In this document: positions 11,380 through 38,190 of the stretch, in pieces
Position numbering within the stretch: position 1 is the stretch's first letter
Layout: every line of letters begins with the position of its first letter
Notes under the pieces: model-generated
What the model was told of the DNA's origin: nothing
Databases searched by the model: none
Seen by the model: only the letters and a program-made list of their open reading frames with translations
Translations under genes and position numbers: made by a program
NCBI RefSeq assembly: GCF_023612095.1
Contig: NZ_CP086235.1
Coordinates: 269,001 to 333,000, forward strand
DNA length: 64,000 bases
Source of the DNA: Cytobacillus firmus
GTDB lineage: Bacteria > Bacillota > Bacilli > Bacillales > Cytobacillaceae
Direction: 5' to 3'

Positions 11380-11987
11380 ATGAGTTTTACAAAGAAGATC
11401 AGCCAGGGTGTTATGAGTGCAGCATTGGGGCTGTCACTAATTGGCGGGGAACATTTGCCTATTTTAGTGACACAGTTGACACGCAGAATACGTTTGCTTC
11501 CGGTACATTGGATTTAGGAATGAACCCAAGCGCGGTTGTGAATATCGACAACATTAAACCAGGCGATGAAGTTTACCGTGAATTCACACTGGAAAACAAT
11601 GGTACATTAGATATTCATAAAGTCCTCTTGAACACCCATTACAATGTGGCTGATGCAAAAGGGGATAATACAGATGACTTTGCCAAACATATTAAAGTAA
11701 CGATTATGTACAATACCAGCAGTGCAACAAACGCTGTTATAGAAACAACTCTGTATGAGCTGCAAAGCCAGCAGCCGGACCTGACAGAACTAAATACATC
11801 TGGCAGTCCAAAACCGGACGGCATTCCAGCTGGTGAAAAGGAAAAAATCTTTGTTCTGTTTGAGTTTGTGGACAATGGACAAGACCAAAACCAGTTCCAG
11901 GGTGATACGCTCGAGGTCAATTGGACATTTAATGCGGAGCAGGCTGCCGGCACCTACAACGATGATACGGATGAGAGCAGCAACTAA
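11380..11987 (+). pseudogene. calY: Camelysin/TasA-like matrix protein gene, broken by a 1-base frameshift
   Basis: The ATG at 11380 follows AGGGGG. The first frame gives MSFTKKISQGVMSAALGLSL then IGG, the classic CalY signal peptide, and stops at 11515. The -1 frame then continues as TFAYFSDTVDTQNTFASGTL and DLGMNPSAVV to 11987. Adding one base at the G4 run 11446-11449 restores a 202-residue protein of normal CalY length, with the SipW cleavage region intact. In the B. cereus group CalY and TasA are biofilm fibre proteins. The break is either a real mutation, a slippage hotspot or a sequencing error; three other genes here show the same kind of break. Confidence 0.88.
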
Positions 11988-11998
11988 TTTTAAACGGG

Positions 11999-12031
11999 CA
12001 GGACTGGCGGCAGCACCGCCAGTCCTGTTTT
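11999..12031 (+). terminator. Terminator of the sipW-camelysin operon
   Basis: Stem CAGGACTGGCGG / CCGCCAGTCCTG with loop CAGCA, followed by TTTTA. It ends at the stop codon of the convergent thioredoxin-like gene. Confidence 0.9.
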
Positions 12032-12359
12032 ACTCATCAATAACCCCTTCATATATCCTTTTCAAATCATCACGAAGCTTCTCGACCGGAATGAACCGCG
12101 CTTCCCTCAATACTTCTCTTCCATCCAGATATAAGGCAATCACAGGCACTGTAAAGGCCATCAGGTACCCGGCAATTTCAGTTACCTTTCCAGCATTCAC
12201 AAGCCGTGCTTCGATACGGGGGTAATCCTTTAACACTTCCTCCACCTGAGGAAGCAGACCATGACAGACGCTTCAGCTGTCATGCAGCACATAAATAAGA
12301 CCCAGCTCCGTGCTTTGAATAAATTGATGCACCTCTTCCATCGCTGTCAGCTCTTTCAT
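12030..12359 (-). CDS. Thioredoxin-like protein with in-frame UGA at the first CxxC cysteine (candidate selenoprotein)
   Basis: From the ATG at 12359, behind GGAGG, one frame runs 109 codons to the TAA at 12030, interrupted only by TGA at 12275-12273 (codon 29). The context is LIYVLHDS-(UGA)-SVCHGLLPQV, where related Bacillus thioredoxin-family proteins have CSVCH, so the UGA replaces the nucleophilic cysteine and Cys32 is the resolving one. The thioredoxin-fold features downstream are intact (FTVPVIALYLDG with the cis-proline). A hairpin begins 18 bases after the UGA. Either the codon is read as selenocysteine or it is a nonsense mutation that leaves only codons 30-109. Machinery for selenocysteine is not in this window. 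Confidence 0.75.
12236..12254 (-). promoter_or_regulatory. SECIS-like hairpin downstream of the in-frame UGA
   Basis: On the minus strand CTTCCTC pairs perfectly with GAGGAAG around the loop AGGTG, and two wobble pairs can extend the stem. The loop starts 25 bases after the UGA and has G in its first two positions. This agrees with the general bacterial SECIS pattern: a small apical loop with an early G, about 16-37 bases from the UGA. A seven-base stem can also occur by chance, so this is suggestive only. Confidence 0.45.
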
Positions 12360-12448
12360 TTTTATCCTCCTCCCGGCATTTTTTCCATTATACAATAGGA
12401 TTTCCAGAACCTATCCTAGAATACCTTATGGGAAAAGGAGTGGTTAGA

Positions 12449-13045
12449 TTGGCAAATTTATGGGAAGAGAAGTTTTCTCAAGAAGGCTATTTATATGGCG
12501 AAGAGCCCAATGAATTCATCAGAGAGCAGGCATGGCGGCTTGAAGGGCACAAACGAGTTGTCGCCTTTGCCGAGGGGGAGGGCCGAAATGCTGTATTCCT
12601 TGCAAGAAAGGGGTATGATGTAACAGCATGGGATTATACGCAAAGCGGGTTAAACAAAACACAGCAGCTGGCTGAGAGCCATCAGGTCAGAGTGGAAACA
12701 GGGCAGAAGGATCTGATTCATGATTCTGTGCCAACTGAGGAATATGACGCTTCGATTATGGTTTTCGGCCATTTTCTGAAAAAAGACCAAAAAACCGTAT
12801 TTGATAAGCTAGTTTCTGTTGTCAAGCCGGGTGGAATTGTCATGCTTGAGGTTTATTCAGAGGATCAGCTAAGCTATGGTACAGGCGGGCCGAAAAGTGT
12901 GGATATGGTCTATCATCCTGCAGATATTCTTCAATGGATTCAGGGTTATAAGGTCCTTCATTTCTTTTACGGCGAACAGGAAAGAGTGGAAGGAAAAGGC
13001 CATACAGGAACGGGACACGTCATCCAGGTGATCCTGCAAAAGTAG
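12449..13045 (+). CDS. Class I SAM-dependent methyltransferase (TehB-like)
   Basis: The TTG at 12449 lies eight bases after AAGGAG and gives a 198-residue protein opening MANLWEEKFSQEGYLYGEEP. An ATG 21 bp upstream would put the binding site inside the gene. The SAM-binding motif I appears as VVAFAEGEGRNAVFLARKG, and the acidic and post-I motifs follow (VTAWDYTQ; SIMVFGHFLKK). The family includes tellurite-resistance-type and other small-molecule methyltransferases; the substrate is unknown. It is a single gene ending in its own terminator. Confidence 0.85.
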   Translation: MANLWEEKFSQEGYLYGEEPNEFIREQAWRLEGHKRVVAFAEGEGRNAVFLARKGYDVTAWDYTQSGLNKTQQLAESHQVRVETGQKDLIHDSVPTEEYDASIMVFGHFLKKDQKTVFDKLVSVVKPGGIVMLEVYSEDQLSYGTGGPKSVDMVYHPADILQWIQGYKVLHFFYGEQERVEGKGHTGTGHVIQVILQK

Positions 13046-14836: not shown

Positions 14837-14937
14837 TTTGGAATTCAGGGATCAGTCATCAGCCGCCTATGATTTTTTGAACCTATCCCCAAACTCTTGT
14901 AAAATAAGTGCAAACCAGATAGAAAAAAGGAGTCATT

Positions 14938-16079
14938 ATGAAAAGTCATATCGTAATTGGTGCAGGAATTCTGGGGGCCTCTGCTGCCTATCATTTGGCT
15001 AAGGCAGGTGCCAAAGTCACCATTATTGACCGCAAAGATCCGGGCAGGCAACAGATGCTGCGGCCGGAATCATATGCCCCTGGCTGTCACAGCGGCGGAA
15101 TAAAGCGTGGTATGCGCTCGCCAAAGGGGGAGCGGCTTATTATCAGACACTGATCAGGGAGCTTGAAAAAGACGGCGAGACAGAGACCGGCTATCAGCAG
15201 GCAGGCGCCGTCAGCCTTCATACCGATCCTGCAAAGCTCGAAAAAATGGAAGAACGGGCTTTGAAAAGGCGCGGAGATGCCCCTGAAATGGGGGAGATAT
15301 CACCCTTGTCTCCGGAACAGACATCCCGGCTGTTTCCGGCATTGGCTAAGGAATATGCCTCTGTGCATGTAAGCGGTGCGGCGCGCGTCAACGGCCGCGC
15401 ACTGCGCGACGCGCTCCTGCGGGCAGCTGAAAAGCATGGTGCGGAAGTGGTGCAGGGCTCCGCAGAACTTGTGTGCCAGGAAGATGAGATTACAGCTGTT
15501 ACAGCCAATGGAAAGCAATATGAAGCGGAAAGTGTGATTTCAGCGGCCGGAGCATGGGCAGGAGAGCTTTTTGAGCCGCTTGGAATCCAGCTGGATGTGA
15601 AGCCGCAAAAAGCGCAAATCGTCCATCTTCAGCTTGAAGGAGAAGATACGGCGGACTGGCCGGTTGTCATGCCGCCAAACAATCAATATATTCTGGCTTT
15701 TGAGGGCGGACGCATTGTCATTGGTGCGACCCATGAAGATGATATGGGCTACGATTTAAGAGTCACAGCAGGCGGGTTAAATGACATTTTTGAAAAAGCC
15801 CTGGCAATCGCCCCGGGATTATTGAATGGAACGTTTACAGAAGCACGCGTGGGATTTCGTCCCTATACACCCGGATTTCTGCCCATTATAGGCCAAATTC
15901 CTGGTCTCAGAGGTCTTTACATAGCAAATGGGCTTGGAGCCTCTGGGCTCACCGCAGGGCCGTTTCTTGGCGCTCAAGCGGCCAGGCTTGCTCTCGGGCA
16001 GGAGGTTGATATTGACCTGAGCCTCTATGATCCGGCTGGTGCCGTAAAAAAGAATAGGATCTCAAGGTGCCTGTTTTAG
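14938..16079 (+). pseudogene. FAD-dependent oxidoreductase (DAO/glycine-oxidase family), frame broken by one base
   Basis: The ATG follows AAAAAAGGAG. The N-terminus MKSHIVIGAGILGASAAYHL is a Rossmann FAD-binding motif. At 15042-15044 (GGG) one base is missing: the first frame ends at 15153, while the next gives QATDAAAGIICPWLSQRRNK and continues without a stop to 16079. With one base restored the protein has 380 residues, normal for DadA-like or glycine-oxidase-like enzymes, with the conserved end GFRPYTPGFLPIIGQIPGLR then GLYIANGLGASGLTAGP. The substrate is probably a D-amino acid or glycine-type amine. The intact second part argues against long-standing decay. Confidence 0.85.
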
Positions 16080-37304: not shown

Positions 37305-37469
37305 GCTGCAACCCCCTAATAATTTTTTCTCGAACCTAGTATACTTTCTTTAAAATTCAGTTTATTCCTTCTTTTCTGAAATGATTCTTGTATAAAGGCG
37401 GGGCAGGCAGCTGTGGGGCAGTTTGTGAAGGTGGAATGAGATTAATAGATTGAATCGCGGGGAAGACTT

Positions 37470-38190
37470 CGGACTCAGGAAAGAGAAAAGCTGGTGTTAG
37501 AGTCAGAACCGGGATCAACTTCGGACACAAAAAGAGAAAAAGGGTTGCTTAGAGTCAGAACCCGGATCAACTTCGGACACAAAAAGAGAAAAAGGGTTGC
37601 TTAGAGTCAGAACCCGGTGCAACTTCGGACACAAAAAGAGAAGAAGAGCGGCTTAGAGTCAGAACCCGGATCAACTTCTGACACAAAAAGAGAAAAAGGG
37701 CGCTCCAGAGTCAGAACCCGGATTAACTTCGGACACAAAAAGAGAAAAGGGTTGCTTAGAGTCAGAACCTGGATCAACTTCGGACACAAAAAGAGAAAAA
37801 GGGTTGCTTAGAGTCAGAACCCGGTGCAGCTTCGGACACAAAAAGAGAAGAAGAGCGGCTTAGAGTCAGAACCCGGATCAACTTCGGACACAAAAAGAGA
37901 AAAAGGGCGGCTTAGAGTCAGAACCCAGATCAACTTCGGACACAAAAAGAGAAAAAGGGTTGCTTAGAGTCAGAACCCGGTGCAACTTCGGACACAAAAA
38001 GAGAAGAAGAGCGGCTTAGAGTCAGAACCCGGATCAACTCGGACACAAAAAGAGAAAAAGGGTTGCTTAGAGTCAGAACCCAGAACAACTTCGGACACAA
38101 AAAGCGAAAAACGGCGCTCCAGTGTCAGAACCCAGCCCAGCTTCAGACACAAAAAGAAAAAATCCGCGCCCCAGTGTCCAAGCCGCCAGC
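37470..38190. repeat. Tandem array of fourteen ~52-bp repeats (array 2)
   Basis: Units start at 37470, 37522, 37574, 37626, 37678, 37730, 37781, 37833, 37885, 37937, 37989, 38040, 38092 and 38144 (last partial); the spacing is 52 bp, twice 51. The conserved block is TTAGAGTCAGAACCCGG, two variable bases, then CAACTTCGGACACAAAAAG, as in array 1. The variable block cycles through a few types (AGAAAAAGGGTTGC, AGAAGAAGAGCGGC, AGAAAAAGGGCGGC), giving a higher-order pattern. It lies between two minus-strand transporter genes. Frames through it are not genes. Confidence 0.93.

Follow-up and report, generated by a model that had tools for sequence, protein, structure and literature searches.

A thioredoxin-like gene of Cytobacillus firmus carries an in-frame TGA at the place of the family's catalytic cysteine, which raises the question of whether this codon is a lesion, a genuine stop or a signal for the insertion of selenocysteine (Sec). 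The gene lies within a 64,000-nucleotide stretch of DNA that was analyzed as a whole (hereafter, the window), and the features on which the question turns are these:

12030-12359, minus strand: Sec-thioredoxin gene of 109 codons, codon 29 being UGA, ended by the stop TAA
12273-12275, minus strand: UGA codon 29, putatively encoding Sec
12264-12266, minus strand: Cys32, the resolving Cys of the U-S-V-C motif
12366-12374, minus strand: Shine-Dalgarno-like GGGAGGAGG, read by eye

When the minus strand is read from 12359 with TGA taken as U, a 109-residue frame is obtained whose sole TGA is codon 29 (context HDS-U-SVCHG), at the first Cys of the thioredoxin CxxC motif; a plus-strand reading of the same stretch from 12030 contains stops. 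The original prediction, which was made from the sequence of the window and named no strand, had proposed this full-length frame, this placement of the TGA and a strong start. The frame and the TGA were borne out, and the Shine-Dalgarno-like element lies at 12374-12366. The predicted fold is the thioredoxin fold of the thioredoxin superfamily, with a first helix at residues 7-16, a strand at 19-25 and the active-site residue at 29. With C typed for Sec, the protein scored 20.2 bits against a Pfam gathering score of 23.5 for PF00085 (E 0.00062), and it fell below the curated NCBIfam cut-offs of the TrxA equivalogs TIGR01068 (20.5 vs 96.8 bits) and NF047697 (27.3 vs 140 bits). Its likeness to SaoT (NF040730; 13.8 vs 65 bits) and to the SelL-related thioredoxin-like family (NF040769; 14.1 vs 120 bits) is weak, and by score it is a member of neither. 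The closest solved sequence is chain A of PDB entry 4euy, an 'Uncharacterized protein', a match of sequence only (E 5.7e-15, residues 5-99). Cys32 is present in 54 of 55 UGA loci; the sole exception, L139, is a UGA form that reads U-S-V-G, with Gly replacing the resolving Cys.

The TGA is shared widely among relatives. Of 36 genomes of the same genus (host included), 23 hold the gene, 19 with exactly one TGA and four without a stop. The 18 other TGA copies are 80-96% identical and have the TGA at the same codon, and the four stop-free copies are 37-41% identical with Cys at the site. Among the 36 genomes, only three lack selA and selB, and all three are Cys holders; the fourth Cys holder (G011) has both genes. 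At the family level, 65 of 193 genomes gave a match: 50 with TGA, seven stop-free with Cys (E < 1e-18) and eight weak only. All 50 orthologues of the UGA clade have TGA, and no close relative found has Cys, which answers the check on TGA or TGY in close orthologues that the original prediction had suggested. In one of the 50 copies (L110, in G096), a further TAA occurs in frame close to the C-terminus. Beyond the family, an order-level search of 397 genomes yielded at least four further TGA members, and a TGA member is found in Planococcus salinus as well; the order-level counts are lower bounds, taken from the matches listed. Throughout, L086-L097 were omitted from the counts as repeat genomes or species, L098 was counted as UGA and L099 as Cys.

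The presence of the UGA form goes together with that of selB, which was found in 49 of the 50 TGA holders in the family (the exception being a 66% complete genome) and in three of the seven Cys holders. This co-occurrence gave a Fisher p of 0.010 over the 193 genomes and of 0.0004 for the 50 Sec against the seven Cys forms, both with relatedness ignored. Selenoproteins had been expected to be rare in Bacillaceae, an expectation that is not supported here, with selB in 170 of the 193 family genomes. Moreover, the UGA form is absent from 17 of the 36 same-genus genomes, of which 14 have selB, and therefore other selenoproteins must exist in the genus and the Sec-thioredoxin is not the sole reason for Sec decoding there.

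In the host genome itself, the search for selA, selB, selC and selD that had been proposed as a check found three of the four whole: selA (544.7 bits), tRNA-Sec (59.7 bits, anticodon TCA) and selD (422.1 bits), the last with its own TGA within GGUGCK. The fourth, selB, is present and scores over the cut-off, but is split into two frames (776-2664 of locus L001, near 2689490-2691380 of host contig C1), and, compared with each of five aligned relatives, it is one base short in a six-base homopolymer (1523-1528 of L001). In the other 32 same-genus genomes with selB, the gene is a single frame of at least 626 residues without internal stops. Taken at face value, the split would mean that the family is a true selenoprotein family that this strain cannot decode. 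We regard this as unlikely: some assemblies often get the length of homopolymers wrong, and other frames of the window are also broken in comparison with a relative, which makes an assembly error likelier than a true break as the cause of the split. The original prediction had counted four frame breaks in the window; in 45,434 bases aligned with the relative G007, we instead counted 12 indels that change the frame within open frames of 150 amino acids or more, although some may cancel each other out. Such indels relative to G007, at 11446 and 14871-15045, affect two neighboring genes, of which by eye one is secreted-protein-like and the other FAD-oxidase-like. Another genome of the genus, G016, carries two selA and two selB genes over contigs C12, C14 and C16, with one of each on C16.

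The ten formate dehydrogenase (FDH)-family matches in the host genome include none with an internal stop. SelD and the Sec-thioredoxin are therefore the only Sec genes found here in the three families covered (FDH, SelD and Sec-thioredoxin), which do not make an exhaustive list.

Bacterial Sec insertion further calls for an mRNA hairpin, the SECIS element, downstream of the UGA, for which the window offers the following candidate:

12236-12254, minus strand: bacterial SECIS hairpin with a 7-bp stem and the loop AGGTG, beginning 18 nt past the UGA

The perfect seven-base stem (CTTCCTC/GAGGAAG) and its loop, which starts 25 nt after the TGA, lie at 12254-12236 just as had been predicted. The 22-nt hairpin piece folds at -9.1 kcal/mol, a value equaled by eight of 200 shuffled sequences, and the 50 nt from the UGA onward show no folding advantage over their shuffles (z -0.38; 61 of 200), so that folding energy alone gives no evidence for the hairpin. 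It is conservation, not energy, that raises the predicted hairpin above chance. Across 50 orthologues (L119, whose N-terminus is lost at a contig end, was left out of this test), synonymous diversity in 98 six-codon windows is lowest at codons 36-41 (0.124, against a mean of 0.494 over the 62 scored codons). Of 20,000 random five-codon sets, none matched the low value of the five stem codons, although three of the 57 other scored codons were singly as low as the least conserved of the five. The third base is almost invariant at Pro37, Glu40 and Glu41 and seldom changed at Leu36, although it does vary in the gene's remaining Pro, Glu and Leu codons; it is invariant at Gln38, for which the gene has no like codon for comparison. 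The Cys32 codon, unlike the invariant TGA, varies freely between TGT and TGC.

All 51 sequences have AGGT in the loop; three of the four upper stem pairs are likewise kept in every one of them and the fourth in 49. Across the entire 7-bp stem, pairing holds for 95.7% of cells, as compared with 44-71% when the stem is slid by one to three columns. None of the seven pairs is altered on both sides, i.e., there are no compensatory base changes (a supporting rather than defining criterion), and the covariation score of the hairpin is not above that of shuffles. Of 55 UGA loci, 53 carry the core CCTCAGGTNGAGG with the same spacing, as against none of 24 Cys loci; with the third base left free, the counts become 55 of 55 and one of 24. 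In the 4.38-Mb host genome, the pattern CTTCCTCAGGTNGAGGA occurs once, in the Sec-thioredoxin gene.

Section 5 of PMC13188914 gives a rule for bacterial SECIS elements: an apical loop of 3-9 nt on a stem of 4-16 bp, a G as first or second base of the loop, a distance of 16-37 nt to the UGA, and a minimum free energy of at most -7.5. The window hairpin lies within these limits (loop AGGTG, 25 nt, -10.6 kcal/mol), as do 40 of 51 loci when the stem must be contiguous and 52 of 55 UGA loci when bulges are allowed, three failing. Four of 24 Cys forms pass as well, which makes the rule weak evidence when taken by itself. The SECIS of the host's selD has a CAGGTT apex in common with the Sec-thioredoxin hairpin, as would be expected if one SelB reads both; the two genes are alike in having a UGA and a downstream hairpin with this apex, whereas SelD is an unrelated protein that makes selenophosphate. 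A second hairpin, CATGACAG/CTGTCATG, which would hold the UGA in its loop in the window copy, folds well there over 62 nt (z -2.79); it was rejected as a conserved element, since no more than 59.2% of cells pair when the relatives are compared, whereas the SECIS hairpin reaches 95.7%.

How the gene is represented in public data raises two further readings. A search of 5.8 billion proteins returned 21 matches (nine of which had their sequences inspected), and 16 of these are pieces of 66-76 amino acids, several named thioredoxin by NCBI. One could thus hold that the functional product is only this piece downstream of the TGA, as the databases list it. Such a piece would lose the first helix, the following strand and the active-site residue of the predicted fold, distant Cys relatives keep the whole frame, and the codons ahead of the UGA are under in-frame purifying selection: within the genus, median dN/dS is 0.135 over codons 1-28 (range up to 0.763; 135 usable pairs of 171) and 0.053 over codons 30-103 (166 usable pairs of 171). 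The low value before the UGA argues against a protein that starts only past it, and we consider this reading highly improbable. That most matches are such pieces instead means that the clade is public yet largely mis-annotated in the searched databases.

Of the remaining five matches, two are Cys forms and three, of 98-109 amino acids, carry W at the UGA place, which would suit a UGA read as Trp, or by ordinary suppression, in place of Sec. These W entries are probably gene calls made under a code in which TGA is Trp. Against such a decoding, the UGA falls precisely at the family's catalytic Cys, tRNA-Sec and the other sel genes are present, and the codons of the hairpin are constrained; there is very little chance that it is correct. 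Lastly, that the TGA arose by nonsense mutation or through an error in sequencing and the gene is a pseudogene, a view to which the frame-changing indels of this assembly (that in selB included) lend some color, can hardly be entertained, as the same TGA recurs in the 18 other same-genus genomes, in 50 of 193 family genomes (host included) and across several genera, and the low dN/dS on both sides, where sequence conservation had indeed been predicted, speaks strongly against decay after a nonsense mutation.

Taken together, these comparisons support the selenoprotein interpretation, which none of the refuting observations that were looked for overturned. Judged from sequence, the gene very probably encodes a small thioredoxin-like oxidoreductase that uses Sec as its nucleophile (U29-S-V-C32) and is made by the bacterial Sec route. 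In this route, SelD would supply selenophosphate, SelA would convert Ser to Sec on tRNA-Sec, and SelB would deliver the Sec-tRNA while bound to the hairpin in the mRNA, which begins 18 nt past the UGA. The resulting protein, presumably cytosolic, would be redox-active as a catalyst of thiol-disulfide (selenylsulfide) exchange.

The Cys-form homologues of the same order (24 loci) share the frame and mostly have a C-S-V-C-H motif, but are only 37-50% identical to the window protein; all 24 have TGC or TGT where the UGA forms have TGA, and all 24 lack the CCTCAGGTNGAGG core. In a tree built with the Sec/Cys column masked, they stand on the opposite side of a branch from the UGA forms, with all Sec rows on one side (support 99/95, and 100% of 200 bootstrap trees). 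The tree comprises 53 Sec and 24 Cys rows (77, from 79 after identical rows were merged) and 108 columns; many of its internal nodes are open, and some of the outer rows sit on long branches. Under midpoint rooting the Sec group is nested among Cys forms, and the simplest reading is therefore a single Cys-to-Sec replacement, a direction that agrees with the general trend given in the abstract of PMC1794560.

As regards genomic surroundings, a divergent gene is conserved next to the Sec-thioredoxin gene:

12428-13045, plus strand: TehB-like class I SAM methyltransferase, divergent, conserved neighbor

It scores 35 bits for Pfam TehB (cut-off 20.4) and is found beside the Sec-thioredoxin gene at 41 of the 51 UGA loci but at none of the eight Cys loci; in these counts L119 has no upstream sequence and the Cys locus L040 little, and the UGA forms L095-L097 are in neither. 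In the group g14 (mainly Mesobacillus), selB lies 126-2629 bp from the gene in all of the 19 holders, out of 21, for which both positions are listed, while in the host Cytobacillus genome the two are far apart. We treat the proximity of the methyltransferase and of selB as functional hints only.

At the other end of the gene, a 12-bp inverted repeat with a short T run (11999-12027) lies between two convergent genes and looks terminator-like by eye. Rfam gave two sub-threshold matches only in the window, both at this inverted repeat just past the gene end; sigma-70 and terminator scans gave no match, the inverted repeat included, and a tRNA scan of the window found none. Elsewhere in the window, at 1515-2039 and 37460-38160, short internal repeats cross-match many places of a relative in 52-base steps.

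Sec-containing thioredoxin is a known kind of protein, already reported from other lineages. Table 1 of PMC13188914 lists a Sec-containing thioredoxin (Trx, PF00085, UxxC) as experimentally verified, and Table 3 of PMC1794560 has thioredoxin among the selenoproteins of Geobacter, Anaeromyxobacter, Carboxydothermus and Treponema. The former is like the window protein in being a thioredoxin with Sec replacing the first CxxC Cys, but differs in that the window clade is from Bacilli and below the PF00085 cut-off; the two are set side by side here by description, as given in that table. The main text of PMC13188914 contains none of the names Bacillus, Bacillaceae, Bacilli, Bacillota, Firmicutes or Cytobacillus. 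Table 2 of PMC1794560 credits Firmicutes/Bacillales with three selenoproteins in three families, and an earlier sighting of the Bacilli clade may lie within these three. A description of the clade was not found in searches of a PMC collection that is mostly without subscription papers, nor in passages of PMC5029168, PMC1794560, PMC9312934 and PMC13188914, nor by terms in PMC12013277. As far as these searches go, what is new is the conserved Bacilli clade, with its apparent single origin, near-invariant SECIS core and methyltransferase neighbor.

The finding thus adds to the Sec thioredoxins a conserved clade of Bacilli whose members appear mainly as shortened pieces in the searched databases, and offers a one-origin case for asking why Sec replaced Cys. 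A more tentative, and rather doubtful, suggestion is that the Sec-thioredoxin and the TehB-like methyltransferase form a module acting on selenium or another metalloid, so that the former would not be a general thioredoxin, and that in genomes like this one the protein, rather than FDH, is a main client that maintains Sec decoding; if so, the thioredoxin might, for example, reduce selenium for SelD, and the methyltransferase methylate the excess. The Sec-thioredoxin would also offer a reason for keeping the Sec machinery in such genomes.
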